Shown here in pieces: positions 866-34,395 of a stretch of 48,341 bases of DNA. The notes under the pieces are model-generated. The model did not search any database. It had not been told where the DNA came from and saw nothing but the letters and a program-made list of their open reading frames with translations. Source of the DNA: a virus. The first letter of the stretch is position 1. Every line of letters starts with the position of its first letter. The stretch lies in IMG/VR virus record IMGVR_UViG_3300042897_000614, positions 1 through 48,341 of that record; one strand, written 5' to 3'. The position numbers and the translations under genes are program-made.

Positions 866-1096
866 ATGCAAGTAGTTGTTTTAGAACCGAGTACAAACAC
901 TCACCGTTTACAATCAAAATCAGTTGAGGTAACAGATTTAGGACATGGTATCTTAAAAGTAAAAACATCTAAAGAAGGTGGTATTGTCACTCACGGTGAA
1001 CATGGTACCTTAGTAACCGAATCTGAGAATATTATTAAATATGTTCAGCAAGAGCTAAATCCTCTTACTAAAAAAATGCAAAATGCATTTGACTAA
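866..1096 (+). CDS. Hypothetical small protein, 76 aa
   Basis: A small hydrophilic protein that I do not recognise. It reads as a beta-rich N-terminal two thirds (many Val, Thr and Gly, with GEHGTLVTE near residues 44-52) followed by an amphipathic C-terminal helix. It stands alone as a transcription unit, with a TTG-N20-TA promoter directly upstream and a strong intrinsic terminator 25 bases after its stop. A single-gene unit with its own promoter and terminator suggests high or independently timed expression. No cysteine pairs, signal peptide or membrane segment is seen, and no function is proposed. Confidence 0.75.
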   Translation: MQVVVLEPSTNTHRLQSKSVEVTDLGHGILKVKTSKEGGIVTHGEHGTLVTESENIIKYVQQELNPLTKKMQNAFD

Positions 1097-1120
1097 GTAA
1101 TTAATTTATTATAGTATAAG

Positions 1121-1143
1121 CCCCTAGCAATAGGGGTTTTTTT
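1121..1143 (+). terminator. Intrinsic terminator
   Basis: A perfect 6-bp stem CCCCTA/TAGGGG with a GCAA (GNRA) tetraloop is followed by a run of seven T. It is one of the few GC-rich spots in the region and ends the 866-1096 unit. Confidence 0.92.
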
Positions 1144-1152
1144 ACTGTTCAA

Positions 1153-1160
1153 TATTTATT
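1153..1160 (+). promoter_or_regulatory. Late-box candidate TATTTATT
   Basis: A one-mismatch version of the recurring TATTTATA box, 44 bases before the ATG at 1197 and just after the terminator. The distance is longer than the usual 21-33 bases. Confidence 0.4.
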
Positions 1161-1196
1161 AATAATACTAATACGAGTAATATAAGCTAACAGTAC

Positions 1197-2501
1197 ATGA
1201 TAAAGTTAAAAAACATATTAAGTAGAATTATTTCAGAACAAGTGCCATCTAAAAAACTTAATGTATTATTTGTTGGTGATTCTCAAACCGCAGCTCCATG
1301 GAGTTATGCAAATACATTAATTAAATCTGGTCGTGTAACAGGTGATATAGTTGCAAAAAATGGAGCTTCGACTTCGGCTGTACTACAAATGTTACGATCT
1401 AATATATCTGATGAATACGATGTAGTATCTATAATGGCTGGTGGTAATGATGGTGCATCGCCAACTCCTCTAAATGCAATTGAAAATTTTAAATCTATGT
1501 TTCAGATTGTAAATCAGCATGGTGCAAAACTAGTTGTAGTAACTAACCCAACAAAACGTTTTATACAACCAGGCGATTCTTATTATAAAAAACAAGGATA
1601 TCCTTCGAATGATAAAATTTCCAATTGGCTAGCAACTGAGTCGGATGCGTATGCTGTAATTGATACTGGCGATTTTAATAAAGCAGATTTTACTAAAGAT
1701 CATGTACATTTAGATAGCGATGGTCATTTTAAAATTGCAGATCTTTGGAAAAAACGTGTAGCAAATATTGATGTAGATAGGCAAGATGAGCCAGCATCGG
1801 AAAAATGGCCAGTTATCGCAAAATATGGAGATCGAGGCGATGTTGTATATAAGTTGCAGCAATTGTTAATCAATCTCGGATTTGAGGTAGGTCCAATGGA
1901 AGATGATGGTATATATGGGCCATATACCAAAAAAGGAGTAACTAATTTTCAGAAAGATATTGGTTTTGAACCAACTGGTATATATGATGAAAATACTCAA
2001 AAAGAATTAGAAGCTAAATCTAATATTTCATTGAAAAGTTTATTGCCCCGAAAAGAAAAATCATCAATAACCAAATTAAATATTGCTTCTAGTGCAACAG
2101 CAACCGGAGCAACCATAATTGACTTTTTTGTAGGTAAAGGATTAACACCGGAACAATCTGCAGGAATAGCTGGTAATTTATATATAGAGTCTACATTTAA
2201 AACAGGGGCAATTGGTGACCGTGGTACTTCGAAAGGATTGGCTCAATGGCATAATGAGCGTTGGTCTAATTTAGTTGCATGGTGTGAAGGGGAAGGAATG
2301 GATCCATATTCAGTAACCGGCCAGCTTGAGTTTTTATGGCATGAATTGACAACTACTGAATCTAAAGCATTAACTAAATTAAAACAAACACAAACACCAT
2401 CTGATGCCGCTCATGCATTTGCTAGATGGTTTGAACGACCATCGATTATTCATCGAAAACGAAAAGATGCGGCAGAAACGTTATTTGCAGATTATAAATA
2501 A
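1197..2501 (+). CDS. Three-domain wall hydrolase: SGNH esterase, peptidoglycan-binding domain, tail-type lysozyme
   Basis: Residues 1-14 form the leader [14 protein letters not shown], ending in an I-S-E site. Residues 21-190 look like an SGNH hydrolase: GDSQ with Ser29 (block I), GGND with Asn84 (block III), and DHVH giving Asp168 and His171 (block V), so the triad is complete. Residues 206-275 read as a PG_binding_1 repeat domain. Residues 300-434 resemble the phage tail lysozyme family, with Glu331 in YIES as the likely catalytic acid, followed by KGLAQWH. The expected roles are removal of acyl groups from a cell-surface glycan and cleavage of the peptidoglycan backbone. The leader is shared with downstream genes and suggests packaging in the virion, which would suit an enzyme that opens the wall during genome entry. 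An alternative is a baseplate-bound lysozyme. Domain calls are fairly sure; location is inferred. Confidence 0.85.
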   Translation: MIKLKNILSRIISEQVPSKKLNVLFVGDSQTAAPWSYANTLIKSGRVTGDIVAKNGASTSAVLQMLRSNISDEYDVVSIMAGGNDGASPTPLNAIENFKSMFQIVNQHGAKLVVVTNPTKRFIQPGDSYYKKQGYPSNDKISNWLATESDAYAVIDTGDFNKADFTKDHVHLDSDGHFKIADLWKKRVANIDVDRQDEPASEKWPVIAKYGDRGDVVYKLQQLLINLGFEVGPMEDDGIYGPYTKKGVTNFQKDIGFEPTGIYDENTQKELEAKSNISLKSLLPRKEKSSITKLNIASSATATGATIIDFFVGKGLTPEQSAGIAGNLYIESTFKTGAIGDRGTSKGLAQWHNERWSNLVAWCEGEGMDPYSVTGQLEFLWHELTTTESKALTKLKQTQTPSDAAHAFARWFERPSIIHRKRKDAAETLFADYK

Positions 2502-2512
2502 TAATTATTAAT

Positions 2513-3154
2513 ATGATACGATTAAAATCATTATTAGAACAAAAAACAGAAATGCCGGCTACACAAGCATCATCTAGACGAGCTGTGAAAGTGACAAATA
2601 CTAACAATCAAGAAACTCATACTACGATGTCAACAACAAATAAACGACCAATTGGTGCAGGATGGTCTTCGTCTAAAGCATGGTTTGCATCAGGTGGCGA
2701 AAATTATTGGGATGGCTCGAAAGAACGACCAGCAATTACCGTTAATACTACAGATTCTGGTATTCAATTAACATATGAAGGGCCTGGATCTGGATATGCA
2801 ATTGCACATGCATCTGATAGTAAAGGTGATTCACTACATCAAGCATTTAATGTTATAATAGCAGAAGCTAATCCTTATTTAATTAAAGGCGGAATAAAAC
2901 CAGATATATTTAACATACAAACTAGTTGTACTAAGAAAGGGAATATGTATAATATGAAAATAACAATCCCATTTACAAAAGTAGATAAAGGCGTATATCA
3001 GTTAAATCGTAGAGGTGGTTGGGGACACGATCCTGGTGCTAATGCTGTAACATCTGCAGTTGGAAATGTACCTAATTTAGAAGGACCTGATAAAGTTGTT
3101 GTTAATACAGGTGGTAGTAAAATTACAGAATATTTCGTGACATATACAATATGA
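2513..3154 (+). CDS. Putative packaged protein with MIRLKSLLE leader, 213 aa
   Basis: The function is not recognised. The N-terminus MIRLKSLLE matches the leader of the upstream hydrolase and ends in an L-L-E site. Residues 10-50 are Thr/Asn/Ser-rich and probably disordered. From about residue 55 the protein is beta-rich with many aromatics (WSSSKAW, NYWDG), and it ends in a Gly-rich segment (RRGGWGHDPG) and a final strand. There is no signal peptide. It starts 11 bases after the hydrolase stop, so the two are co-transcribed. The leader and position suggest that it is made late and enters the prohead, possibly alongside the hydrolase. Confidence 0.75.
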   Translation: MIRLKSLLEQKTEMPATQASSRRAVKVTNTNNQETHTTMSTTNKRPIGAGWSSSKAWFASGGENYWDGSKERPAITVNTTDSGIQLTYEGPGSGYAIAHASDSKGDSLHQAFNVIIAEANPYLIKGGIKPDIFNIQTSCTKKGNMYNMKITIPFTKVDKGVYQLNRRGGWGHDPGANAVTSAVGNVPNLEGPDKVVVNTGGSKITEYFVTYTI

Positions 3155-3157
3155 TCA

Positions 3158-3165
3158 TATTTATA
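3158..3165 (+). promoter_or_regulatory. Late box TATTTATA
   Basis: An exact TATTTATA, 27 bases before the ATG at 3185, continuing as TATTTATATA. It lies just after the preceding stop codon. Confidence 0.6.
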
Positions 3166-3184
3166 TAAAAAAGAAAATAATACG

Positions 3185-3652
3185 ATGATTAAATTAAAAA
3201 ACATATTAACTGAAGGATTTGCGTGGGAACGTAAAGAAGGTAAGGGTTTACCTACATTAGCTGAAGTTCAAGCAGAATATGAACGTAATTTAGCTGAAAA
3301 TGATGATTCGAACTTTTCGGAATATTCAAATGATGCATTAATGGATATGAAAGTAAGTCTAGCTAGATACCAAGGTACTGAATCTGAAATTGAAAAAATA
3401 AATAGCGAACTAGATAGACGTAACCAAAATGCATCACTTGATGAAGTAGGTGAAAATGATGATGTTTATTTAGCAGCAAATGAAGCATTGGATGCTGTAG
3501 GTGAAGAAGATGCTGACATCGATAATGATGGTGATTCTGACAAATCAGATGACTATTTAAAGAATCGTCGTAAAACGATATCTAAAAATATCGATGAAGG
3601 TATTGTTGCTAGATTTAAAAAGAATCTTTTAGGTGGTGCTGTAAGAAAGTAA
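3185..3652 (+). CDS. Acidic protein with [10 protein letters not shown] leader and EF-hand-like loop, 155 aa
   Basis: The leader [10 protein letters not shown] ends in an L-T-E site followed by Gly, and is nearly identical to that of the 1197 gene at both protein and DNA level. The rest is strongly acidic and helical. Near residues 114-125 there is [15 protein letters not shown], which has the spacing of a calcium-binding EF-hand or dockerin-type loop, followed by a basic segment (KNRRKTISK). A basic tail closes the protein. Acidic small proteins with a cleavable leader recall T4 prohead-core and internal proteins; that comparison is by character, not proven homology. It has its own late box and is followed closely by the kinase-fold pair. 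Confidence 0.75.
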
Positions 3653-3654
3653 TT

Positions 3655-4377
3655 ATGATTAAGTTAGTTAATTTATTGCGAGAACAATATGTCTCAGATG
3701 ATATGTTAAAACAGCTTGCGTTAGAAATGGGTGAAACTATTGTTGAATTTTTAGGTGGTGGTAATAATGGTCAAGCATATTTAACTCAATCAGGTAAAGT
3801 ATTAAAATTTACTGCTGATACTGCTGAGGTTGCTTTGTCGACTAGATTAAAAACTAAACGATTATACAAACATATTGTCAATGTGTATGATGTCCGTGCT
3901 GTCGAAGGTGTAACTAATAGTTATCTAATATTAATGGATTTAGTTACAGATCCATTAGATGAGCATGTAAATTGGTCAACACAATGGAATTATATAAGCC
4001 GACGATATTTTAGTAACGAACAGACAGATGCAGAATTATTACAATGGATTAAAGATACAGATGGTCAATGGTTAGATTTTGATATGGACTTTATCAATAA
4101 AATCATGCCACAACGAACTGGAATTAAACGAGATTTTTCTGAATTGAGAATTGTACCAGACGAAGCACATGCTGGTAATATGGGTTGGAATCGACATGGT
4201 AATTTTGTTCACTTCGATGCTTGGCAAAAAGAACATTATACTAAAGGGGTTCGTACTAGATTTAATGGAGAACCAATTCGACAACCTAGTGGTAAACTAG
4301 ATACTAAAATTAATAATACACCATACAAAAAAGGATTATCTAAACCATTACAATCTTTTAAAACTGGAAATAATTAA
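3655..4377 (+). CDS. Kinase-fold protein A with packaging-type leader, 240 aa
   Basis: Residues 1-10 (MIKLVNLLRE) are the shared leader, ending in L-R-E. The body reads as a small protein-kinase-like fold: Gly-rich loop G34-GGNNGQAY, Lys51 in VLKFT (beta-3 lysine), Glu58 as candidate helix-C acid, hinge ILMDLV at 92-97, catalytic-loop-like DEAHAGN at 169-175, and HFDAW with Asp188 in the DFG position. The H-x-x-N arrangement is closer to APH/ABC1-type small kinases than to eukaryotic Ser/Thr kinases. The acid expected five residues before Asn175 is Glu170, with Asp169 beside it, so activity is plausible but not certain. It is a tandem paralogue of the next gene, 2 bases after the previous stop. 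The substrate is unknown. Confidence 0.75.
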   Translation: MIKLVNLLREQYVSDDMLKQLALEMGETIVEFLGGGNNGQAYLTQSGKVLKFTADTAEVALSTRLKTKRLYKHIVNVYDVRAVEGVTNSYLILMDLVTDPLDEHVNWSTQWNYISRRYFSNEQTDAELLQWIKDTDGQWLDFDMDFINKIMPQRTGIKRDFSELRIVPDEAHAGNMGWNRHGNFVHFDAWQKEHYTKGVRTRFNGEPIRQPSGKLDTKINNTPYKKGLSKPLQSFKTGNN

Positions 4378-4381
4378 AAGT

Positions 4382-5077
4382 ATGATCAAGCTAGTTAATT
4401 TATTGCAAGAAGCATCATTACCAATTGATATGATAAAAAAATTGGCATTGGAAATGGGTGAAACTGTAACAGAGGCAATTGGTGTTGGTGCAAATGGCAT
4501 TGCATATGCAACCACATCCGGCAAAGTTGTAAAATTAACAGATGATCCAGCAGAGGTTGCGTTAGCTACAAGATTACGTACAAAACGTTTGTATAAACAT
4601 ATTGTTAATGTGTATGAAGTAAGACCTATAGAAAATTTAAATAATAATTATATAATTCTAATGGATACAGTTACGCCATTCCATTTAGGAGAACAAAATC
4701 AATGGTTTTACCTACGCAAGGAATATTTCGATCGAAAAAAATCAGATAAAGATTTTTCAGAATGGATATCATCTCAACCAGAAAGAACATCAAATCGAAT
4801 ATATGATAAACAATTTATTGAAAAAATAACTCAACAACGAACAGGTTTATTACGAGATTTTTCCGAATTACGAATAGTATGGGATGAAGCACACGGTGGT
4901 AATATGGGTTGGAATCGCCATGGTAATCTAGTTCACTTTGATGCATGGCAAACTGTGCATCATACACAATTAGGTACGTCAGGCGATTCTGCGTTAGATT
5001 ATGATGAAGCAAATGAAACTCCATATGCAAAAGGATTATCTAAACCATTACAGTCTTTTAAAAATAGAAATAACTAA
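4382..5077 (+). CDS. Kinase-fold protein B, tandem paralogue, 231 aa
   Basis: This is a diverged duplicate of the preceding protein, alignable over its whole length. It has the leader MIKLVNLLQE, Gly-rich loop GVGANGIAY near 34-42, Lys51 in VVKLT, the identical block KRLYKHIVNVY near 68-78, hinge IILMD, catalytic-type DEAHGGN near 168-174, Asp187 in HFDAW, and a nearly identical C-terminus (YAKGLSKPLQSF). Conservation of all kinase-type motifs in both copies argues that both are under selection for nucleotide binding, while the middle insert (residues 100-155) has diverged and may set partner or substrate. The spacing of 4 bases to the upstream gene and 4 to the next indicates an operon. Function in the virion or host is inferred only. 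Confidence 0.75.
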   Translation: MIKLVNLLQEASLPIDMIKKLALEMGETVTEAIGVGANGIAYATTSGKVVKLTDDPAEVALATRLRTKRLYKHIVNVYEVRPIENLNNNYIILMDTVTPFHLGEQNQWFYLRKEYFDRKKSDKDFSEWISSQPERTSNRIYDKQFIEKITQQRTGLLRDFSELRIVWDEAHGGNMGWNRHGNLVHFDAWQTVHHTQLGTSGDSALDYDEANETPYAKGLSKPLQSFKNRNN

Positions 5078-5081
5078 TAGT

Positions 5082-5234
5082 ATGATACGTTTAAAAACAT
5101 TGTTAGAAAATAAAAAAACTGAATCATTTGATAGATTATCTTATTATGTAGAATATTTTAAGAATCTATCACCAAAAGGTTTTATTGTGAAAAAATCTGA
5201 TGATGAGATTATCATAAAAATAAAAAAGAAATAA
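5082..5234 (+). CDS. Short protein with MIRLKTLLE leader, 50 aa
   Basis: I place the start at 5082 because it gives MIRLKTLLE, the leader seen in the neighbouring genes, and because it leaves 4 bases after the preceding stop. A longer in-frame version from 5001 would overlap the kinase gene and hide the leader inside the protein. The remaining 41 residues are a helix-plus-strand segment with a very basic end (IIIKIKKK). If the leader is cut after the L-L-E site, a basic peptide of about 41 residues would remain, similar in character to small DNA-associated internal head peptides. It is the last gene before a terminator. Confidence 0.7.
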   Translation: MIRLKTLLENKKTESFDRLSYYVEYFKNLSPKGFIVKKSDDEIIIKIKKK

Positions 5235-5274
5235 TTAAACATATTCGACTGCTACCTAAGGTCGTTTTAGTTAG

Positions 5275-5304
5275 GCTCAAGTGTAAAAAGCTTGAGCTTT
5301 TTTT
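5275..5304 (+). terminator. Intrinsic terminator
   Basis: The stem GCTCAAG (5275-5281) pairs with CTTGAGC (5291-5297) across a 9-base A-rich loop and is followed by seven T. A weaker CCTAA/TTAGG pairing sits directly upstream. It closes the leader-peptide cassette. Confidence 0.85.
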
Positions 5305-5313
5305 ATGTTCGCA

Positions 5314-5321
5314 TATTTATA
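5314..5321 (+). promoter_or_regulatory. Late box TATTTATA
   Basis: An exact box, 33 bases before the small ORF at 5347, directly after the terminator. It probably drives the 5347 and ferritin genes. Confidence 0.55.
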
Positions 5322-5346
5322 TATAAAATATAGGAAATATAAGATA

Positions 5347-5436
5347 ATGGAATATACTGCGGAAGATTATGATATATTGTATGGATTAGATGATATACAA
5401 TATGAAGTAGTATCATTAGACTTAATCAATATATAA
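5347..5436 (+). CDS. Very short acidic ORF, 29 aa
   Basis: A 30-codon frame (including stop) reading MEYTAEDYDILYGLDDIQ and onward, with an acidic and tyrosine-rich composition. It lies between a late box and the ferritin gene, in a position where a leader gene would be expected. Its start is 33 bases after the box, the same spacing as in longer genes. It could be a genuine micro-protein, an upstream translated leader that tunes ferritin expression, or chance. Confidence 0.4.
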   Translation: MEYTAEDYDILYGLDDIQYEVVSLDLINI

Positions 5437-5456
5437 ATTAAATTAAAAATATACAA

Positions 5457-5960
5457 ATGAGTACAGTAAAAACACCAAGAACATTAAATGATGTGTCTGT
5501 TAAAATTTTAACGGATCGTTTACGAGACGAATATACCGCACATTATTTTTATAGAAATGCAACCAATTGGTGTGCTGGAATTGGATACTTAAAGGCAGCT
5601 GCATTTTTTGCAGCAGAATCTGTATCAGAATTAGAACACGCAATGGATATCCAGAAATTTCTAGTAGATTGGAACGTTGATCCATTATTACCTAGTATTA
5701 AACCTAATATTCAATTTACGGATTTAATTGATATTGTTAACAAATCATATGCAATGGAAAATGGATTATTTGAATCATATTGTAAAAATTCCACAGAACT
5801 ATTTGCTACAGATATTAATACATTCGACTTTCTAACAAAATACAGAGGCATACAAAATGATGCTGTAATTGAATATTCAGATTTACTTAATGCTGCTATG
5901 CTAGTTGATACTAACAACAAATTTGATATATTATACTTTGAACAAACATATTTTAATTAA
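5457..5960 (+). CDS. Ferritin-like diiron protein, 167 aa
   Basis: The length and helical pattern match bacterial ferritins (four-helix bundle). Candidate diiron ligands sit where expected: Glu25 in helix A (DEYTAHYFY), Glu58 and His61 in the helix B motif ELEH preceded by Glu54, Glu101 and Glu106 in helix C, and Glu139 in helix D. The segment AAESVSELEHA is the clearest family mark. The likely role is oxidation and storage of ferrous iron, or protection of DNA from Fenton chemistry, in the infected cell or the particle. There is no obvious targeting leader. It sits between the leader-peptide cassette and another putative internal protein. A cage-forming Dps is less likely because Dps has a different site at the dimer interface. 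Iron binding is not shown by sequence alone. Confidence 0.75.
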   Translation: MSTVKTPRTLNDVSVKILTDRLRDEYTAHYFYRNATNWCAGIGYLKAAAFFAAESVSELEHAMDIQKFLVDWNVDPLLPSIKPNIQFTDLIDIVNKSYAMENGLFESYCKNSTELFATDINTFDFLTKYRGIQNDAVIEYSDLLNAAMLVDTNNKFDILYFEQTYFN

Positions 5961-5975
5961 AAGAAATAAATTAAC

Positions 5976-6491
5976 ATGAACAAATCATTTTTAAACAATC
6001 CATTATTCCGTAAAATTCTTAAAGAAGAATTGGATTTAGTACGTAACGTAATTAATGAAAATTATAGTGCTGATAAAATTTGGTCGTCTATGTCTGAAAA
6101 AGATAGAGAAGATGTGTTTTTGGCATCAGCTGATGATAATGGACCAGATTTAGCTAATCAATATGCTGCGGAATCCGTATGGGATAATGTTCCTGCAGAT
6201 ATACAAGATACATTAGATTTATCTGCATATGAATTAGCAAATGATGATCAAATTGGTCGTACTAATTTAAGAGCAATTATTTCATTATCTAATAACGATA
6301 TGAAAGTTAAACAAATTGTTGATAAATTTTTAAATGCAATTGGTAGAGAATCAGTTCAAAATTTAACAAAAAAACAATCAAGTAAATTATTAGATGCAGT
6401 TCATAGCAGACAACGTGGTGTAACTAAATCATGGAACCCAAATGATATGGGTAACATTAATCCAAATGACTATGGATCACTCGGATCATAA
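5976..6491 (+). CDS. Putative packaged protein, 171 aa
   Basis: Not recognised. The first 17 residues (MNKSFLNNPLFRKILKE) form an amphipathic basic helix ending in an L-K-E site, like the leaders of the genes before it though not the same sequence. The body is helical and rich in Asp, Asn and Ala, with two segments of similar build (KIWSSMSEKDREDVFLAS and SVWDNVPADIQDTLDLS) that suggest an internal duplication of a short helical hairpin. The C-terminus is Asn/Asp/Gly-rich and probably disordered. It starts 15 bases after the ferritin gene. Confidence 0.7.
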   Translation: MNKSFLNNPLFRKILKEELDLVRNVINENYSADKIWSSMSEKDREDVFLASADDNGPDLANQYAAESVWDNVPADIQDTLDLSAYELANDDQIGRTNLRAIISLSNNDMKVKQIVDKFLNAIGRESVQNLTKKQSSKLLDAVHSRQRGVTKSWNPNDMGNINPNDYGSLGS

Positions 6492-6687
6492 ATGTAAACG
6501 CTATAAATTTATAGTAGCAGATATTATACAAGAGTCTGGTGATATTAGGCGTGAATTTATAAATACAGCACATATACTACGACTTTATGTTGTAGATAAC
6601 AATGTATATGCTGAATTAACTAATAACGTTATACTTAAATCTACGGCTAGTAATCTAGATGCATTTATTGAAAAATTTTACCCATAA
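6472..6687 (+). CDS. Hypothetical protein, about 71 aa
   Basis: An unknown small protein with a compact alternating strand/helix pattern (RYKFIVADIIQ, HILRLYVVDNNVYAEL). The frame is open from 6442, but I prefer the start at 6472 (MDHSDHKCK) because earlier starts would add residues read entirely within the previous gene. Even so it overlaps the preceding gene by 20 bases. It is followed by a late box, so it may end its operon. Confidence 0.55.
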   Translation: MDHSDHKCKRYKFIVADIIQESGDIRREFINTAHILRLYVVDNNVYAELTNNVILKSTASNLDAFIEKFYP

Positions 6688-6701
6688 CTTAACTATAGTT
6701 A

Positions 6702-6709
6702 TATTTATA
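6702..6709 (+). promoter_or_regulatory. Late box TATTTATA
   Basis: An exact box, 30 bases before the ATG at 6732, in the short gap after the preceding stop. Confidence 0.6.
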
Positions 6710-6731
6710 TTAAATTAAAAAGGTTTATATT

Positions 6732-6938
6732 ATGTCAGAACAAGAAATTACGTCACAAGAAATGTATGTGGTTATGGAACAAATTTGGTTAGAATTCCAA
6801 GAAAACCATAATAGGTTTACTGAAAAAAATGTTAAAACAGCAGCTGCTAGAGCTCGTAAATCAATTAACGAACTTAAAAAGCTAATTAGTAAGTATCGTT
6901 CAACTCAGTTAGCAGAAACTAAACAACCTGCTAATTAA
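6732..6938 (+). CDS. Histone H1-like (Hc1-type) DNA-binding protein, 68 aa
   Basis: The C-terminal half, from FTEKNVKTAAARARKSINEL through KKLISKYRSTQLAE, closely follows the pattern of Hc1-type histone-like proteins common in Bacteroidota and Chlamydiae: K-x-A-A-x-R-x-R-K-x-x-x-E-L-K-x-L followed by a KYR-type basic end. The N-terminal half is an acidic helix. Such proteins coat or bend DNA. In a phage the protein could condense the genome, act on the host nucleoid, or be packaged. It has its own late box, which points to late expression. The match is by pattern only and the protein is short, so this is moderate confidence. Confidence 0.55.
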   Translation: MSEQEITSQEMYVVMEQIWLEFQENHNRFTEKNVKTAAARARKSINELKKLISKYRSTQLAETKQPAN

Positions 6939-6950
6939 ATTTAATTAATT

Positions 6951-7763
6951 ATGGCAAAGTCAGTAGAATATATTATACGATCATCGATATCGAAATTAAT
7001 CAAAGAAGCTCCCGAATTGGATAATGCACCGGTAGATGCTGAGAAATCAATGTTTACTCCTGCAGAGAAAAGTTTCTTAGGTAAATTTGATGCACGCGGA
7101 ACTACTCATATAGGTATAATATATTCTACTTCCGATGCTGGTATACAAGAATTCTTAATGCGTACCGGTAAGGATCTAAATTTGTCTAGAGAAATGCTAG
7201 ATAAATTAATTAATGATGGTATTATAGAAATTGCACCATATGGTGGTTATGGAAATGATACTAACTATACATTACAATTAAATTTATCATTGGATGACAT
7301 TAATGGATTTGGTGATGCTGAGAAAGAGAAATTAGAAACGGGTGATGACGCATCTGGAGCTCCTGCACCAGGTGGTGAAGAACCTCTTATGCCAGAACCA
7401 ACCCCGGGCCCGGAAAATGCATGGGTTGTTAGATATGGTGATATAATTTCAGAATCAGTAAAAATAGCTACTCAGTTAATTACTGAAAAAACTAAATCAA
7501 AAACAACGCAAACTAAATCAACAGTACACGTTAAACAATCACGTGAATTAAATTTGTTACCTAAAGGATTCATTACTCAATTAGAACGTATAATTGATAT
7601 GATTAACCTTAAAGCAAAAACTAAATTTACAAAACAACGAGTGATTGCTGACATATTAGATAATTTAGCTGTTAATTTAGATTTGACTACCGATCAAATT
7701 CAAAAAGCATATATCTATCATAGAAATCAAAAAAAATTAAATAAACTTTTAAATAAAAAATAG
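6951..7763 (+). CDS. Putative virion protein with L/I-x-E leader, 270 aa
   Basis: Not recognised. The first 19 residues (MAKSVEYIIRSSISKLIKE) are an amphipathic helix ending in I-K-E before Ala, a good prohead-protease-type site. Residues 35-125 look folded (mixed helix and strand, with a YGGYGND loop). Residues 128-158 are a Pro/Gly/Glu linker (APAPGGEEPLMPEPTPGP). The last 110 residues are basic and helical (KTKSKTTQTKSTVHVKQ, ending KKLNKLLNKK), suited to binding nucleic acid. A second cleavage-like motif (LITE) lies near residue 178. The layout suggests a packaged protein with separable domains. Confidence 0.75.
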   Translation: MAKSVEYIIRSSISKLIKEAPELDNAPVDAEKSMFTPAEKSFLGKFDARGTTHIGIIYSTSDAGIQEFLMRTGKDLNLSREMLDKLINDGIIEIAPYGGYGNDTNYTLQLNLSLDDINGFGDAEKEKLETGDDASGAPAPGGEEPLMPEPTPGPENAWVVRYGDIISESVKIATQLITEKTKSKTTQTKSTVHVKQSRELNLLPKGFITQLERIIDMINLKAKTKFTKQRVIADILDNLAVNLDLTTDQIQKAYIYHRNQKKLNKLLNKK

Positions 7764-7764
7764 C

Positions 7765-7797
7765 TTGGATTTTAAATATATATTTCATATTATTATG
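7765..7797 (+). promoter_or_regulatory. Bacteroidota-type promoter (TTGGAT-N-TATTATTATG)
   Basis: TTG at 7765-7767, 20 bases, then TATTATTATG at 7788-7797. The same TTGGAT start and spacing are seen at 799, 10024 and 13323. It lies 33 bases before the ATG at 7830. Confidence 0.6.
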
Positions 7798-7829
7798 GTA
7801 TATAATTAATAACTAAAATTTTATTTAAA

Positions 7830-8039
7830 ATGGGGTATTACACAGCAAAGGTACAATTGACAGATGTGGTTGACACACCTAAAGGTACAAAAGAAAAAAG
7901 AAGTACAGAAACTTATTTAGTTGAAGCACTTTCAGTTACAGAAGCAGAAGCAAAAGTAGTTGCAGATTTCAAAGGCTATACTTTCGACTTCGAAGTAAAA
8001 TCAGTTACGAATAGTAAAATTGTTAAAATTATAGAATAA
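7830..8039 (+). CDS. DUF4494-like small protein, 69 aa
   Basis: The central stretch TYLVEALSVTEAEAKVVADF strongly recalls the DUF4494 family of Bacteroidota and their phages, in which a short strand is followed by Y-L-V-(D/E)-A-L-S-x-T-E-A-E-A. The length also fits. The function of the family is not known to me. It is the first gene behind a TTG-N20-TA promoter and its stop codon overlaps the start of the next gene (TAATG), so at least two genes share the transcript. The family call supports a Bacteroidota host. Confidence 0.7.
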   Translation: MGYYTAKVQLTDVVDTPKGTKEKRSTETYLVEALSVTEAEAKVVADFKGYTFDFEVKSVTNSKIVKIIE

Positions 8040-8314
8040 TGGCATACAAAGCAGGAGATACCGTTATAGTTACATTTGAAGATGCAAATCGAGTAGCAGT
8101 AATTTTAGATAGTTTTCTAGTCAACAAAAAAACAATGTATGATATATTGTTAGAAAACAGAAGTGCTATGACAATGATAAATACGTCATCGAATAATAGA
8201 ACTTATATTAATAGAACGTTAACTAAATTGCTATGCGATAGTGATCAAATAGTAACAACTATCCCTTATAAGGAACTATTAGAAAATGATGCATTGCCAA
8301 TTGTTAGAGCATAA
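8039..8314 (+). CDS. Hypothetical small beta-barrel-like protein, 91 aa
   Basis: Unrecognised. It opens with YKAGDTVIVTFED and RVAVILDSF, a pattern of short strands and turns typical of SH3/KOW-like barrels, then a Ser/Asn-rich middle and a helical end. It is translationally coupled to the upstream DUF4494-like gene by a one-base TAATG overlap. The gene at 9378 opens with a comparable KPGDAVCFTWF pattern, so both may use similar small barrels. Confidence 0.65.
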   Translation: MAYKAGDTVIVTFEDANRVAVILDSFLVNKKTMYDILLENRSAMTMINTSSNNRTYINRTLTKLLCDSDQIVTTIPYKELLENDALPIVRA

Positions 8315-8341
8315 TTAAAAATTAGTTATAAATAAAAAAAC

Positions 8342-8734
8342 ATGATTAAAAGTATTAATTCGCCAGCTGCAATCTCAGATAAGTTTGTAAAGAGATATGG
8401 TAAAGTATGGGCAGAAACAGATTTCATTATTGCTGATAAAATCTCAGAAGAAATCTTTAAGGAAGATCCAATGAATACTGATGTTGGGTATTTAACATTG
8501 AATAGCAGAAAAATACAATTTAAATTTAAAGATCTAATTGCATATTCTAAAAGTGTTGAAGAATTGATTAATACAATTTATTCATCAGAAGCTTCTAAAA
8601 CTGATACATTTGATGTTTCAATTAGAGGAGAATCTTTCGTATTATGTAAACATGAAATTGCAAGATTATCGACAACATTGTTAGATGCAACCACTGCTAT
8701 CACACGTGGATATGAGCTAGGCTTATATTTATAA
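8342..8734 (+). CDS. Hypothetical protein, 130 aa
   Basis: Unrecognised alpha/beta protein without signal or membrane segment. It starts 27 bases after the preceding stop. A TATAAATA (8327-8334), the T4-orientation late box, lies only 15 bases before the ATG, too close for a typical promoter of this phage, so I give it no weight. The C-terminal half is helical (EIARLSTTLLDATTAITRGYEL). It probably belongs to the operon that began at 7830. Confidence 0.75.
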   Translation: MIKSINSPAAISDKFVKRYGKVWAETDFIIADKISEEIFKEDPMNTDVGYLTLNSRKIQFKFKDLIAYSKSVEELINTIYSSEASKTDTFDVSIRGESFVLCKHEIARLSTTLLDATTAITRGYELGLYL

Positions 8735-8751
8735 TAAAATATTATACCTAT

Positions 8752-8934
8752 ATGAAAACATTTATTTACTATTCAAAAACAGATAATTCATGTGAACCTA
8801 TAGGTCGTGTAGCTGCCACGTGTTGGTATAATGCATTAGAACAGATTGCAATAATTAAACGATTACCTCCAGGAGAAATCGTAGACTTATTTGAAATACA
8901 ACAACTAAATGTAAATGGAAACACTATTCAATAG
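8752..8934 (+). CDS. Hypothetical small protein, 60 aa
   Basis: An unknown protein with a compact pattern: a first strand (KTFIYYS), a helix (ATCWYNALEQIAIIKRL), then a strand (EIVDLFEIQQLNV). This beta-alpha-beta arrangement is typical of small phage host-takeover proteins but gives no function. Its end overlaps the next gene by 20 bases, which indicates coupled translation. Confidence 0.65.
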   Translation: MKTFIYYSKTDNSCEPIGRVAATCWYNALEQIAIIKRLPPGEIVDLFEIQQLNVNGNTIQ

Positions 8935-9373
8935 TATTAACGTTAATTATTCAGAGTATAGTTATTTTAGTAAAAAGTTAGATATTGCATCCCGTGCATC
9001 ATTTTTGTTTCAATTGTTTGAAGAACAACAAAATGCATTAAATAAACGCGGACCTGATCTAGCTCAATTTTTTAAAACAATTATTGAGGAACGATTAAAA
9101 GATTCACCAGACACATATATTACAGAAACATATGAAGATCCAAAATATGCATCGGATCCTAATAGGGTTGATATTCTAATTGATGATACTAATATAATGG
9201 TAGAATCTAATAGTTTAAAAGCAATTCGCCAGGTAGTGTATAGATTCATAGAATCTGGATATATATTGAGACGTGATAAGGTAGCTGAGAAGTCTTTTAA
9301 GGGTGGTAAGATTACTAGGTATCTTCGTATCTTCGCTATCATAGATCAAACGTCTCATATATGTATAAATTAA
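8915..9373 (+). CDS. Hypothetical protein, 152 aa
   Basis: Unrecognised. The N-terminal half is helical (SRASFLFQLFEEQQNALN). The middle holds an acidic strand pair (DPNRVDILIDDTNIMVE) and the C-terminal part is basic. The start at 8915 lies inside the preceding gene; no later in-frame Met before residue 99 gives a sensible protein. It ends 4 bases before the next gene. Confidence 0.65.
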   Translation: METLFNSINVNYSEYSYFSKKLDIASRASFLFQLFEEQQNALNKRGPDLAQFFKTIIEERLKDSPDTYITETYEDPKYASDPNRVDILIDDTNIMVESNSLKAIRQVVYRFIESGYILRRDKVAEKSFKGGKITRYLRIFAIIDQTSHICIN

Positions 9374-10762: not shown

Positions 10763-11794
10763 TTATTTCCAAATTGGACAAACAGGAATTACTTGAGCGC
10801 CACCGACACTTATACCACCACCTGTTTTAGTTGGAACACGTTGTTTTGATTTTTTTGGTATTGTAATATCTTTAAACCCTAATACTATTTTATAATTAGA
10901 AACAATTGTTTCGTTTGGTAAAAATGTTACAATTTCACCAGGCGTATTTCCAATTGTCTCAATCAATATACTTCCGTAACTTCCTTTAAATGGTCCGTAT
11001 AATTTATCATACTCCGCTTTAAATTTAGGATTTAATTTACCAGTACCAAAAAAGTGATCTTTTTCTGTTTGTGTATATTCCGGTCCGCGATTTGGCTTTT
11101 CGTCGAATTTTTTAATAAGTTGACCTTTAAATTCCGGGAATGTTTGTTTTACTAACGTATCTAACGTTGCAACAATTGTTTCACAACGTCGTTTAGCTAA
11201 CTCAACATTACCAGTTTCTCTAGAAAAAGTACCACCTAATGTAGTTGGTACCTTACTCGTTGAAGATCCGCCTAATATTTCTATTTTTTGTATTGTTTCA
11301 TCTGCAGGTATTTGTGCTTTTAATTCAGCAATTAATGATGCAAATTTAGCTTGATTATTAGCAGATACAGCAATTTCATTATCAGTTAAATAAAAATTAT
11401 TTAATTCTGGATTTGGCTGTGTAATATCTGGATAAAATGCCGAATACATCGTTGGAGCTTTTACAACAGGTGGTTTAGCTGCAGTTGTTATTGTTTCGGA
11501 TGCTCCGCCTATAGAAGCATTCGATACATTCTTTAAAGATTTACCATAAGTATAACCTTTAAGTCTAGCATGCTTTTCTATTTGTAATCTAGCTTTTGCC
11601 ATTAATGCAGTTTTTTCTTCAGGTTTAATATTTGCCCATAATTTTTTAGATCTTTCGGGGAATAATCCTACTACAACTGATTCGGTTCCATCTGAATATG
11701 TTACTTGCTCTTTAAGAAATTTACGTGTTAATTTAGATTCATTAAGATTTTTAACTCTAAAACGAAGCATATTTTCTGCTAAAATGTTTTTCAT
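10763..11794 (-). CDS. Putative packaged protein with a possible OmpA-like domain, 343 aa
   Basis: The first seven residues, MKNILAE, end in an L-A-E site; a second site (KFLKE before Gln) follows near residue 30. Residues 115-250 have features of an OmpA-like peptidoglycan-binding fold: a strand with IEILGGSS, then GNVELAKRRCETIVATL, the N-x-x-L-A-x-x-R-A helix seen in that family, but the usual initial D-x-x-x-F part is weak. The middle holds a Pro/Ala-rich linker. A protein that both enters the capsid and binds cell wall would fit an ejected or tail-linked role. It is the last gene of a three-gene minus-strand operon but has its own late box. The domain call is tentative. Confidence 0.65.
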   Translation of the reverse strand: MKNILAENMLRFRVKNLNESKLTRKFLKEQVTYSDGTESVVVGLFPERSKKLWANIKPEEKTALMAKARLQIEKHARLKGYTYGKSLKNVSNASIGGASETITTAAKPPVVKAPTMYSAFYPDITQPNPELNNFYLTDNEIAVSANNQAKFASLIAELKAQIPADETIQKIEILGGSSTSKVPTTLGGTFSRETGNVELAKRRCETIVATLDTLVKQTFPEFKGQLIKKFDEKPNRGPEYTQTEKDHFFGTGKLNPKFKAEYDKLYGPFKGSYGSILIETIGNTPGEIVTFLPNETIVSNYKIVLGFKDITIPKKSKQRVPTKTGGGISVGGAQVIPVCPIWK

Positions 11795-11835: not shown

Positions 11836-12531
11836 TTATTTAATATTTTTTCTGCTTCGAGCCAATTTCTCAGCCCCAGATAGATTACTAATATCATTTG
11901 GGTCTAATGGACCAGTTAATGGTTTAGTACCACTAGTTGTTGTCGATGTATAGCCATATCCATAGTTACTAGTACCTTTTCCTTTTGTAAGTTGAGTACC
12001 TAATGATTGCTGTGATGCACCTGGTACTAGTTTTGCTAATGCATCATGTACGTCATAACGTTGAGATGTAGAAATAGTCGGCATTATATCATCCGCCATT
12101 TTTATACCTTGCTTTAATGTAAATTTTCCTGACCTAACTTTATTTTCTATATCGGTAAGTGTATGTGTATCTTTTTGAAATATTACATTGTTCCAATGAC
12201 GCCATGCTGATTCACTTACATGAGGATCTATTCCGGAATTCCGTAAGTTTTTTATATGTTTAAATCGTTTATACCAATCTTTCATACTTGTAATTCCTGG
12301 TTTAAAGATTGCCCTATAGATCGGTGCTCTGTATTTACCTATAAGAAATATTCCTGCAGCATATTTTGCCCATGGAAATTGTGTATCTATATCAGCTACT
12401 TTCTGCAGAGCATCAGTACCCAACCATGCTAAACCAGTAGCCTCATTGTCATCACCCGTTTGTTTAACTGGGACTTCATTAAATTCATCTAGTTTATTTA
12501 TTTTTCTTGCGTATTGTTCTGATAATTTCAT
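11836..12531 (-). CDS. Putative virion protein, 231 aa
   Basis: Unrecognised. The start MKLSEQYARKINKLDEF carries two L-x-E-type sites in the first 16 residues, as in its neighbours. Residues 50-75 contain a hydrophobic segment (WAKYAAGIFLIGKYRAPIYRAIF) that could lie on or in a membrane. The central part is basic and helical, and the last 70 residues are Gly/Ser/Thr/Tyr-rich (YGYGYTSTTTSGTK), probably flexible. Its start codon is 2 bases from the stop of the upstream gene in the operon. Confidence 0.65.
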   Translation of the reverse strand: MKLSEQYARKINKLDEFNEVPVKQTGDDNEATGLAWLGTDALQKVADIDTQFPWAKYAAGIFLIGKYRAPIYRAIFKPGITSMKDWYKRFKHIKNLRNSGIDPHVSESAWRHWNNVIFQKDTHTLTDIENKVRSGKFTLKQGIKMADDIMPTISTSQRYDVHDALAKLVPGASQQSLGTQLTKGKGTSNYGYGYTSTTTSGTKPLTGPLDPNDISNLSGAEKLARSRKNIK

Positions 12532-12533
12532 AA

Positions 12534-13271
12534 TTATTTCTTTTTTAATTGTTTCATAAACGCATTATAAACTTTTTGTTCATGTTGTTTAATCAATTCC
12601 TCATATGATGGCATTACCCAATCATACGCTTTCTGATAACCAGCTTCTGCAGCTTGATATCCTAAATCAGCAACATTCCATTGAGTTCCAAATTTACCTA
12701 ATTTAAAGGTACCTTGACCGAGTTGTTGTAACGCTGTTTTTTTAGCAGGTGATAATGTAGATGCTGCAATTTTACCAGCATTTGCTTTAGCTTTGGCTCG
12801 TACTAATGATTCGATTTCTTTTTTAATAAAGTCTTTATTCAATCCAATTTTTTGTAATATTACTTTTTGAGCTGGTGTTGCTTTTTTAGTTTGAGATGCT
12901 TTTATCAATGCGTCAATACCTTTTTTAGTCATTCCTTGTATACCGGGTATTTTATTAAAAAGACTAGGTATGCCTGGTAGCAATGCAAATACTGTTGCTA
13001 ACCCAGCTTCTCGAGGTTGACCTTCCGATGCATATAATGCAGCATTACCTAATTGTATACCAGCTGATAACAATAATCCAATACCCGGTATAAATAAAGC
13101 ACCAAATGATGTGACATCTGCTATATTATGCAATGTTTCAGAATCAATTGGAGTTATCGTCATTGGATCTGCACTTTTAAACGATGGCTTTGATATATCT
13201 ATAGGAAGTTTTGTTTGTTCGGCTAATTGTTTCCGTTTAACCGTCTGTTCGTATTGTCTAGATTTATTCAT
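12534..13271 (-). CDS. Putative membrane-active packaged protein, 245 aa
   Basis: The N-terminus (MNKSRQYEQTVKRKQLAE) is basic and helical, ending in an L-A-E site before Gln. Residues 50-105 hold two glycine-rich hydrophobic segments (FGALFIPGIGLLLSAGIQLG and GLATVFALLPGIPSLF) of the kind that insert in membranes as hairpins. The rest is a basic helical region rich in Lys and Ala. No enzyme motif is seen. A leader compatible with packaging plus membrane-inserting helices would suit a protein ejected with DNA to help it cross the envelope, but this is inference. First gene of the minus-strand operon. Confidence 0.65.
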   Translation of the reverse strand: MNKSRQYEQTVKRKQLAEQTKLPIDISKPSFKSADPMTITPIDSETLHNIADVTSFGALFIPGIGLLLSAGIQLGNAALYASEGQPREAGLATVFALLPGIPSLFNKIPGIQGMTKKGIDALIKASQTKKATPAQKVILQKIGLNKDFIKKEIESLVRAKAKANAGKIAASTLSPAKKTALQQLGQGTFKLGKFGTQWNVADLGYQAAEAGYQKAYDWVMPSYEELIKQHEQKVYNAFMKQLKKK

Positions 13272-15950: not shown

Positions 15951-16620
15951 CTATTGGACATCTATTACGGAATTAGCAATATCCGGTTATAATAGAACAC
16001 CGAATGAAATTTCACGTGAAAAGATATATCGTAGATTTGTATATCCAGCATTAATGAAAATGGCTGAAAATATTATTAATAAAATAAAGCCAGATTATAT
16101 TGATTCATCATTTGCTGATTTACAAACCGATTTAGTAACACATTTAACTAGTAAATTGGATAAGTTCAAACCAGAAAATGGAAAAGCATATTCATACTAT
16201 ACTAGAACATCATTTAACTATTTAATCGGCGAAAATCAAAAAGCTTACTCTAAATTGAAAAATGGTGCAATTGAATTAGATATAGATGAACAACGAAATG
16301 TGTTGATTGAATTGCATAATGATGAGATGACAGAAACATTGAAATACTTTATGGATGCATATATTGAATATTGTTATGCTAACTTAAATTATATATTCAC
16401 AAATCAAGCTGATATTCATGTTGCCGATTCTATACTTCATATTTTTGAATCGCGTGATGTAATTGAGGTATTTAATAAAAAAGCGTTATATATTTTTATA
16501 AGAGAGCGTACTGGTTTAGTTACTACTAACATAACTAGAGTCGTTAAGGAATTGAAATCTATATATGAACTTAAATTTAAAGAGTACGAACAAAATAACT
16601 TCGTAAATTTGCCTTTCTGA
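15922..16620 (+). CDS. Late-transcription sigma factor, T4 gp55-like, 232 aa
   Basis: Residues 60-115 carry a sigma-70 region-2-like segment: FADLQTDLVTHLTSKLDKF, then KPENGKAYSYYTRTSFNYLIGENQK, the aromatic-rich helix that binds and melts the -10 element. The size is a little above T4 gp55 (about 185 aa), and no region 4 is evident, as expected for gp55-type factors that recognise only a -10-like box. It would direct host RNA polymerase to late promoters, here probably TATTTATA. The start overlaps the upstream gene by 29 bases. A late box follows its stop directly, opening the baseplate operon. Confidence 0.8.
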   Translation: MAKRAKKSNNYWTSITELAISGYNRTPNEISREKIYRRFVYPALMKMAENIINKIKPDYIDSSFADLQTDLVTHLTSKLDKFKPENGKAYSYYTRTSFNYLIGENQKAYSKLKNGAIELDIDEQRNVLIELHNDEMTETLKYFMDAYIEYCYANLNYIFTNQADIHVADSILHIFESRDVIEVFNKKALYIFIRERTGLVTTNITRVVKELKSIYELKFKEYEQNNFVNLPF

Positions 16621-16628
16621 TATTTATA
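16621..16628 (+). promoter_or_regulatory. Late box TATTTATA
   Basis: An exact box directly after the sigma-factor stop, 21 bases before the ATG at 16642. ATATGA (16626-16631) and TCATAT (16638-16643) could pair and cover the start codon of read-through transcripts. Confidence 0.65.
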
Positions 16629-16641
16629 TGAAAATACTCAT

Positions 16642-17061
16642 ATGGATAACACAGAAGAAATATTTAAAGGTGTCAGTTTCGCTGATTTGATGCATGATGT
16701 ATATCATAACTCAAAAAAGAAAGATCGACAAATAAATCAATTGATAGCACAATTACAACCATTGATACGTAATGCATCAGATGCCACTGTAATTGTGCCG
16801 TTAATTAAAGAATACTTAGAAGTAAGTGTTAAGAATGATGACCACCTAGTAAAATTAACAGCAATCGTTCAACGATTAATTTCTACTAAACAGCAAATAA
16901 ATGGTGCTGATAGTTTAATGAGTGATGAAGAAAAAGCTGAACTATTAAAATTAGCAGAAGATACATTTTCAGATGAATTAGAAAATGAAATTGCGATTAT
17001 AGACCAAGCTGCAATTAAAATCAAACAACAAGCTGCTAAATCAAAGGATTCAAATGAGTAA
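16642..17061 (+). CDS. Hypothetical structural or assembly protein, 139 aa
   Basis: An almost entirely helical protein (charged, with repeated Ile/Leu spacing) that I do not recognise. It opens the baseplate gene block and overlaps the gp5-like gene by 8 bases, so an assembly chaperone or small wedge/neck role is reasonable. There are no cysteines and no membrane segment. The acidic C-terminal half (ENEIAIIDQAAIKIKQQAAK) suggests a coiled coil. Confidence 0.7.
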   Translation: MDNTEEIFKGVSFADLMHDVYHNSKKKDRQINQLIAQLQPLIRNASDATVIVPLIKEYLEVSVKNDDHLVKLTAIVQRLISTKQQINGADSLMSDEEKAELLKLAEDTFSDELENEIAIIDQAAIKIKQQAAKSKDSNE

Positions 17062-18999: not shown

Positions 19000-19500
19000 A
19001 TGGATACATCTAATTTTTTAAATTCAATACGCAAAATTATTCGCGAGGAAGTACGTACTGTTATAAAACAAGAATTAACGGATATACTAAAAGAAGGATT
19101 AAAACCAACTTTAACTGAATTAACACAAACTACTAGAAACCCGAATACAGTTTCAACTAGAAAACCAGTACCAGTTAAAGAAGTAACCAAAACACAAAAT
19201 CCTGTACTATTTACTGAAAATAAATGGGCGAATATCTTAAATGATACTCCAATTCTTCGAGAACAGTCAGGTAATATAAATTCATATTCTGAAATGTTAA
19301 ATGAGGAAATGGATGATCTTTCATTTACATCGGCTGATGCACAAGGATTTGGTATGATGCGACAATCAAATAATAAACCGAGTGTAATGGAAGATCCAGA
19401 AACGGGTAAGGTATATGACATAGCACCAGCTGTTCAAGATGCCATGACTCGTGATTATTCTGGATTAATGAAAGCTATAGCTGCGAAGAAAGGTAATTAA
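19000..19500 (+). CDS. Putative virion protein with I-R-E leader, 166 aa
   Basis: Not recognised. The first 16 residues (MDTSNFLNSIRKIIRE) are an amphipathic helix ending in I-R-E, similar to the leaders of the 1197-7763 cassette, although it is followed by a long charged helix and may simply be a helix. The middle is Thr/Asn/Pro-rich, and the C-terminal half (FTSADAQGFGMMRQ, DPETGKVYDIAPAVQDAMTR) looks folded and is reminiscent of small neck/baseplate assembly proteins. It has a late box, and its stop overlaps the gp25-like start (TAATG). Confidence 0.7.
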   Translation: MDTSNFLNSIRKIIREEVRTVIKQELTDILKEGLKPTLTELTQTTRNPNTVSTRKPVPVKEVTKTQNPVLFTENKWANILNDTPILREQSGNINSYSEMLNEEMDDLSFTSADAQGFGMMRQSNNKPSVMEDPETGKVYDIAPAVQDAMTRDYSGLMKAIAAKKGN

Positions 19501-33000: not shown

Positions 33001-34395
33001 ATGAAAACTGTATTAAATAAAATTTTATTAAAATTAGCTGAATCTGAATTAGCTAATCCGAATATATCACCAATTAACGAACAAGCTTGGGATAAACTTA
33101 AAGGTTTATTTAAACGAGATAAATATGATTATAATAAAACTACTAGTAGTGCACGAGAAGATAACGATGGGGATGTTATTAATATTGCTAACTATATAAT
33201 AGATCCACCGATGGAATATGCTACAATTGATAGTCCATGGGGTAAATGGCGACCTGCACAAGGCCGAAGACATTTAGGTATCGATATGCGAACAGATCCA
33301 GGTACTCCTGTTTATGCCGTCCGACCGGGAACTGTAGTTAAAATCGGTGATGACCCAACTGGGTGGGGTACATATGTTATTACTAAACATGAACCATTTA
33401 AATCAGCTGCTACTACACTAGGTGAAACGTTTTATGCATTATATGCACATTTAAGCAATATATCGGTTTCAGTTGGAAGTGAATTAGATTTTGGTACTGT
33501 TATTGGTAAAAGTGGGGGTGCATTTGGAACTCCTGGCGCTGGTAATTCATCTGGACCACATTTACATTTTGAAATAAAAACATCGGAAGAAGGTGGATCG
33601 ATCGATCCAGTTAAATTTTACGCAAAATACGGTAATACGTTTGAAAATCAACCGATACAACATTATAAATCTAGTAAAACTACAAAAAACATAAAATCTC
33701 CAGATTATATAGTTAATCCTGAAAGTGTAAAAACATCGACAATTGTACCAATCGAAACTGAGATTACAAATGATGTAAAAAATGATATTATATCCGGCGA
33801 AACTGTACTAGATGGATTTAAAATATATATGTTACCGGGTGACGAAACATATATGTATGGAATTCCGACTGATGAATTACCAAATGTAAAATATGATTGG
33901 TGGACTGTATCAGATACATTGAGTTCGTGGGTATCATTAAAATCTAAATTATCTCCGAATAAATATAATAAAGCTTTATCGATATTAAATACAGCTTTCC
34001 CGGGTGCTTTAGATCTGAATAAATTAGATACTACTACAACTGTACCGATTGCATCGACGTCGACATCAGCAAATCGTGCAACAACTCAAAATAAACCAAC
34101 ATCTACAGCGAAAAACAAAAAATCAGTATTTTCATATTTAGTAAAAGGTACTGTATATACATCGGATTCTGTATTAAAAAATAAACCAACATATAAATTA
34201 TACAATTATAATAGTACACAGAAAAAATTTATACATGCGAGTAATGGTAAAATCGATGCAACAGATAGTATTATATATTTAGGACATGATTCGGAAAATA
34301 ATTATATGTACGTACAAATTGTAAGTGCTGGTATTGATCCTGGTAATAAGAATAAATATTGGATAAGTGTTAATGATATTGAATTAAAAAAATAA
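33001..34395 (+). CDS. M23 (lysostaphin-type) metallopeptidase with packaging-type leader, 464 aa
   Basis: Residues 78-195 form a complete M23 domain: His91 and Asp95 in RRHLGIDMRTDPGTPVYA, His150 in LYAHLSN, and His187/His189 in GPHLHFEI, giving the zinc ligands and catalytic histidine. It should cut peptide cross-links in peptidoglycan. The N-terminus (MKTVLNKILLKLAE) is a basic amphipathic helix ending in L-A-E before Ser, like other leaders here; a second site (INE before Gln) is near residue 27. The C-terminal 260 residues include a Thr-rich linker and two small domains that may bind wall or tail. It lies between tail and DNA genes; a tail-tip or packaged location is inferred. Confidence 0.85.
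   Translation: MKTVLNKILLKLAESELANPNISPINEQAWDKLKGLFKRDKYDYNKTTSSAREDNDGDVINIANYIIDPPMEYATIDSPWGKWRPAQGRRHLGIDMRTDPGTPVYAVRPGTVVKIGDDPTGWGTYVITKHEPFKSAATTLGETFYALYAHLSNISVSVGSELDFGTVIGKSGGAFGTPGAGNSSGPHLHFEIKTSEEGGSIDPVKFYAKYGNTFENQPIQHYKSSKTTKNIKSPDYIVNPESVKTSTIVPIETEITNDVKNDIISGETVLDGFKIYMLPGDETYMYGIPTDELPNVKYDWWTVSDTLSSWVSLKSKLSPNKYNKALSILNTAFPGALDLNKLDTTTTVPIASTSTSANRATTQNKPTSTAKNKKSVFSYLVKGTVYTSDSVLKNKPTYKLYNYNSTQKKFIHASNGKIDATDSIIYLGHDSENNYMYVQIVSAGIDPGNKNKYWISVNDIELKK

Follow-up and report, generated by a model that had tools for sequence, protein, structure and literature searches.

Among described systems, the closest to the locus analysed here is the capsid targeting sequence of phage T4, in which the internal proteins IPI, IPII and IPIII and the N-terminus of gp24 carry ten N-terminal residues with hydrophobic residues at positions 4, 7 and 8 and glutamate at position 10. 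In IPIII, targeting depends on residues 4 and 7 and processing on residues 8 and 10 (PMC9026906), and in the T4 record the N-terminus of IPII and IPIII reads MKTYQEFIAE↓A (the arrow marks the cut, which is a predicted one in the leaders described below). Only three internal proteins are found in T4, each blocking a different host GmrSD nuclease (PMC12373910). T4 also packages Alt, an ADP-ribosyltransferase that is cut by gp21 and has its own propeptide of 7 residues (PMC9026906). The head ejection proteins of phiKZ and SPN3US are likewise packaged in the head, and a gp21-related protease cleaves them after Glu (PMC9026906). They belong to another phage lineage, however, and differ from the present case in having propeptide regions with several cleavage sites. 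In encapsulins, too, a short terminal tag brings unrelated cargo into a shell, although loading proceeds without a protease step, unlike in the system proposed here.

The leader described in this work resembles the T4 capsid targeting sequence in being common to unrelated proteins and in belonging to a lineage whose members (the relatives of our phage) encode a gp21-type protease. It differs in its residues, with a consensus of M-I-K/R-L-K-x-I/L-L-x-E in place of MKTYQEFIAE, and in its cargo: T4 packages a few small basic internal proteins, whereas here the leader precedes many enzymes, often encoded in tandem arrays. A second, longer leader also coexists with it, unlike in T4. The counterpart of Alt is again an ADP-ribosyltransferase with an N-terminal L/I-x-E leader, but it is a PF03496-type protein, likened to Alt in kind, and resides in the head operon (L227, L207 and L156). 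We infer that the leader system is a variant of T4 capsid targeting with a much larger, enzyme-rich predicted cargo set. A literature search for an earlier account of the leader, in which subscription journals were little covered, returned only the T4, P1 and giant-phage systems.

Six leader genes in the window

The window, meaning the whole 48,341-base virus record that was analysed, is a fragmentary T4-like myophage sequence. The gp6-like protein it encodes shows 50% identity to that of Microcystis phage Mel-JY01 and 41% to that of Flavobacterium phage immuto, and its 817-aa nucleotidyltransferase led to 80 close metagenomic relatives. A search of the DNA at 1000-9000 against phage records gave no match. 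Gene calling relied on a simple script that takes the longest ORF, and some starts may therefore be misplaced. Six genes begin with the strict form of the leader:

1197 to 2501, plus strand: protein with SGNH hydrolase, PG_binding_1 and phage tail lysozyme domains (Pfam); leader at 1197-1238
2513 to 3154, plus strand: 213-aa protein; leader MIRLKSLLE↓Q at 2513-2539
3185 to 3652, plus strand: 155-aa protein with a C-terminal EF-hand-like loop; leader at 3185-3214
3655 to 4377, plus strand: kinase-fold protein; leader MIKLVNLLRE↓Q at 3655-3684
4382 to 5077, plus strand: kinase-fold paralogue; leader MIKLVNLLQE↓A at 4382-4411
5082 to 5234, plus strand: 50-aa ORF; leader MIRLKTLLE↓N at 5082-5108

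The bodies behind these leaders are unrelated except for the paralogues at 3655 and 4382 (59% identity), so that the cargo of the window comprises the SGNH-peptidoglycan-binding-lysozyme protein, the kinase-fold pair and three proteins without an assigned family, among them the 2513 product, which had no family match. All five homologues of the 1197 product with swapped domains retain an L/I-x-E leader; the 3185 and 4382 products had no homologues in isolated phages. The start at 5082 sits within a longer ORF (5001-5234), 5 nt past the preceding stop. At the DNA level the six leader copies differ at synonymous positions, and the sequences upstream of them differ as well, which indicates that it is the peptide that has been kept, under selection.

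Several further observations concern the same genes. Tandem arrays of 3-6 leader genes, like that at 1197-5234, occur in L245, L155, L221, L234 and L182, and the stop and start codons within leader-gene arrays often overlap. A homologue of the 3185 product (L001, 237-983) has a leader-like segment, PIKLKTLLEGYAW, in mid-protein, fused after another domain and without a Met of its own. EF-hand-like loops (DxDxDG..., DQNNNGYPDxTE) are present in 26 of 290 leader-bearing proteins versus 14 of 3468 other genes of the same loci, the carriers including the protein at 3185-3652 of the window and members of L248, L346, L348, L354 and others.

Reuse of the leader, its register and the head genes of relatives

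Viral contigs were scanned for codons of MIKLKNI(L/F), with the later residues left free and N-terminal ORFs of at least 45 aa considered. Residue 10 was Glu in 86 of the 97 distinct N-terminal ORFs among the matches listed, as against 0 of 13 such ORFs for the scrambled sequence MKILKNLI, of the same composition, in viral contigs and 0 of 34, among the matches listed, for the leader pattern itself in cellular genomes, where many of the proteins are signal-peptide-like. A sequence-only reading of this DNA had quoted the leaders and their L/I-x-E strings, all of which are found in the sequence, and these two controls place the strict leaders of the window far beyond chance. An origin by chance, given how common L/I-x-E is near N-termini, does hold for the looser list considered below (11 observed, 8.0 expected), but for the strict leader it is excluded by the controls and is barely credible as a general account.

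Across all fetched loci the leader begins 204 distinct ORFs, whose bodies fall into 97 clusters; as these are single-linkage BLAST groups, some distant homology between clusters may be missed. A hydrophobic-x-Glu site is present in 91 of the 97 clusters, and in an alignment of 106 representatives conservation is confined to residues 1-10, with almost nothing after. What is common to these otherwise unrelated proteins is thus a short N-terminal peptide. A shared DNA cassette, acting as a translation start or recombination hot spot and encoding a peptide without function, would suit the tandem arrays with their overlapping start and stop codons; it is extremely unlikely, however, in view of the synonymous differences among the six window copies, the 61 distinct versions of the 24-nt leader DNA among the 97 ORFs listed, and upstream DNA that is only 34% identical.

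The positions that are conserved in the leader, hydrophobic at 4, 7 and 8 with Glu at 10, are those of the T4 capsid targeting sequence. N-termini in this register were counted and compared with expectation, and they number 3 in the window (0.12 expected), 13 in the 160-kb relative G016 (0.41), 6 in G007 (0.39), 5 in G018 (0.48), 6 in Mel-JY01 (0.67) and 4 in immuto (0.57), while T4 itself yields 3 (IPII, IPIII and gp24) against 0.21. Cellular genes show no enrichment (1 versus 2.35 expected). It is conceivable that the leader docks cargo on the prohead without being removed, since in T4 a signal with Asp at residue 10 retains targeting while losing processing (PMC9026906), and 11 of the 97 N-terminal scan ORFs, among the matches listed, lack Glu10. 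Against this, Glu10 is the most constrained position outside the searched residues while residue 9 and P1′ are free, as cleavage predicts, and retention of the leader seems very unlikely.

No protease or capsid gene lies within the 48,341-base window, itself a fragment. A PF03420 search of the window gave no match, nor did the same search of control genomes, and the gene is expected outside the window: in relatives, the terminase, portal, protease, scaffold and gp23 genes lie a few kb past the nucleotidyltransferase, which would place them past the window's right-hand end. In L011, for example, the nucleotidyltransferase is at 6250-8685 and the protease at 16172-16804, and the end of the window falls about 6.5 kb short of the protease position expected from the relatives. 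An S77 protease of the T4 gp21 type is encoded in 19 of 20 relative records, two isolates among them, and gp23 in 18 of 20. The protease conserves the T4 gp21 catalytic motifs GELxHP and GxSSRG, and gp23 has a (V/I)xE↓A processing position, once xE↓S, that aligns with T4 LTE65↓A, as well as an upstream LLE↓G; because P3 is V or I in this gp23, the site preference may differ slightly from that of T4. Among 20 other leader contigs, S77 was found in 8, compared with 2 of 20 control contigs, but co-occurrence outside the close relatives is weak evidence because most leader contigs are fragments. In leader contigs without S77, portal and tube-protein searches gave T4-like genes in some only, as fragments would.

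The head operon contains a leader-bearing protein of its own. In the three loci cited above for the Alt comparison, the gene for a protein family containing an ADP-ribosyltransferase domain (PF03496, 1.5e-10 in L227) comes second after the protease gene and precedes those of the scaffold and gp23. By analogy with Alt, the ADP-ribosyltransferase packaged by T4, this gene may be regarded as the most direct support for capsid targeting. Together, the Glu10 test with its two controls, the T4 register, the S77 protease and gp23 site of the relatives and the head-operon ADP-ribosyltransferase strongly support the core of what the sequence-only reading had proposed, namely a T4-type capsid targeting peptide combined with a gp21-like protease. 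We put at roughly 0.8 the joint probability that the phage of the window belongs to T4-like relatives of the Flavobacterium phage genus Immutovirus and that in these phages the leader acts as the capsid targeting sequence, cut after Glu, with its cargo injected.

Docking, cleavage, packaging and injection of the leader proteins would then proceed as follows. While the prohead assembles, the first ten residues would attach cargo to the internal core; the S77 serine protease of gp21 type, whose gene in relatives lies just past what corresponds to the right end of the window, would cut after Glu10, or after Glu9 or Glu14 in variant leaders; and the mature cargo left inside the head would be ejected with the DNA to act on the host at once. 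A literature search turned up no proteomic analysis of virions from phages of the group, and the Baltic flavophage paper contains none.

Further reused N-termini and the looser list

The leader is not the only N-terminus that recurs in these phages. A second one, ILAENMRRFxTKNLxE, was seen at the N-terminus, and nowhere else, in 85 distinct sequences that cover 46 bodies. A hydrophobic-x-Glu follows downstream in 81 of the 85, and in ten sequences this second leader continues directly from a start resembling the first leader. A scan for ILAENMRRF supplied a large share of these sequences, so what carries information is their N-terminal placement and the Glu that comes after. Because at least one further reused leader thus exists, and the 10763 gene of the window uses a variant of it, the proposal of a single targeting system was too simple. 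Other repeated N-termini were seen as well. In immuto (NC_055915), four proteins (1803, 103806, 117631 and 118632) have a FLVENKLTxNSxLLxE-like N-terminus and two (25061 and 111675) have MKKQILSEQFxRMQxLAGIITES, and in G018 approximately MKxSELRxIIREEIxxVLxE is found on six different proteins (56752, 66535, 67188, 98705, 101169 and 147263).

The sequence-only reading had also extended the leader to a looser set of N-termini, for a total of about 12 packaged proteins. The strings it listed are present, but as a statistical set they fail: L/I-x-E ending at residues 7-22 occurs in 11 of the 44 other window genes, against 8.0 ± 2.2 expected. The figure of 12 is therefore unsupported as stated, since it rests on a three-letter motif at chance level. 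The genes of this set that merit individual mention are these:

5976 to 6491, plus strand: 171-aa protein with a conserved N-terminal helix containing ILKE/ILRE; candidate only
6951 to 7763, plus strand: 270-aa protein; variable leader ending LIKE↓A at 6951-7007
10763 to 11794, minus strand: 343-aa protein of the second leader family; second-type leader MKNILAENMLRFRVKNLNE at 11738-11794
12534 to 13271, minus strand: 245-aa protein; N-terminus ...QLAE↓Q
33001 to 34395, plus strand: M23 peptidase; N-terminus MKTVLNKILLKLAE↓S; candidate only

Only 10763, 6951 and 12534 are individually supported by relatives. The L/I-x-E of 6951 is retained in 8 of 8 homologous N-termini while the rest of its leader varies, and a homologue of 12534 (L169, 9161-10285) bears the leader MIQLKSLFNEQ. 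The gene at 11836 had no homologue among the fetched loci, and that at 19000, a conserved baseplate-operon gene, was judged unlikely to encode a packaged protein. Ordinary homology accounts for the fit of the primase at 35083 (LLQLLESILGK) and of Dps-like N-termini to the loose pattern, and a tally of bare L/I-x-E by position across genomes gave a weak signal or none, which makes the motif unusable alone.

Predicted cargo

The products at 3655 and 4382 are putative kinases by fold. Both have the elements of a kinase-like fold (glycine loop, Lys, alpha-C Glu, catalytic Asp/Asn and metal Asp), and the invariant residues of the family are G36, N38, K51, E58, D168 and D187, along with M1, I2, L4, L8 and E10 of the leader, although its branches are only about 20-25% identical to each other. 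A model of the 4382 product, of moderate confidence (mean pLDDT 70.7, with a low-confidence tail at 190-231), matched 104 PDB chains at E ≤ 0.001, with protein kinases and APH(2″) as the top matches and structural similarity to protein kinases and aminoglycoside phosphotransferases at Z up to 10.1. The leader, at the N-terminus, is modelled with low confidence in both kinase branches. The window pair has an unusual catalytic loop, DEAHxGN. A leader-bearing kinase-like family of about 180 aa (L010, L012, L015, L039 and L060) is very short, stopping just after the metal-binding Asp (VLVDW). The gp093 protein of immuto, with leader MISIYNILKE↓V, appears to be a minimal kinase-like protein as read by eye from its motifs, and had no Pfam match.

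Elsewhere, a ten-residue leader precedes an Fe/Mn superoxide dismutase (L244, 4772-5449), and other loci contribute NUDIX, acetyltransferase and zeta-toxin-like/NT5C proteins and ADP-ribosyltransferases, together with muralytic proteins (glucosaminidase with M23, phage lysozyme with LysM). The muralytic proteins, which are more usual in tails, are the cargo least expected of a head signal. Those at 1197 and in L001, L180, L238 and L248 would suit a leader that addresses proteins to another part of the virion (tail tube, baseplate or neck) or to a host compartment, with Glu10 serving as a binding motif. Such an address is nevertheless unlikely, as the register equals that of the T4 capsid signal, a leader-bearing ADP-ribosyltransferase sits within the head operon, and kinases, ADP-ribosyltransferases, superoxide dismutase and NUDIX proteins are ill-suited to a tail.

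If the leader is a capsid signal, as we favour, about a hundred protein families, mostly of no known function, would become predicted injected effectors, and the leader would provide a new loading tag for putting proteins into phage heads; a cultured leader-bearing phage, Flavobacterium phage immuto (gp093), exists for study. On balance, it seems probable that, in an environmental T4-like lineage, a single ten-residue tag labels a large and rapidly exchanged repertoire of injected enzymes, comprising kinases, ADP-ribosyltransferases, superoxide dismutase, NUDIX, acetyltransferase, zeta-like P-loop and muralytic enzymes taken jointly. If so, the injected host-takeover proteins of these phages, phage-delivered minimal kinases included, could be read from sequence.
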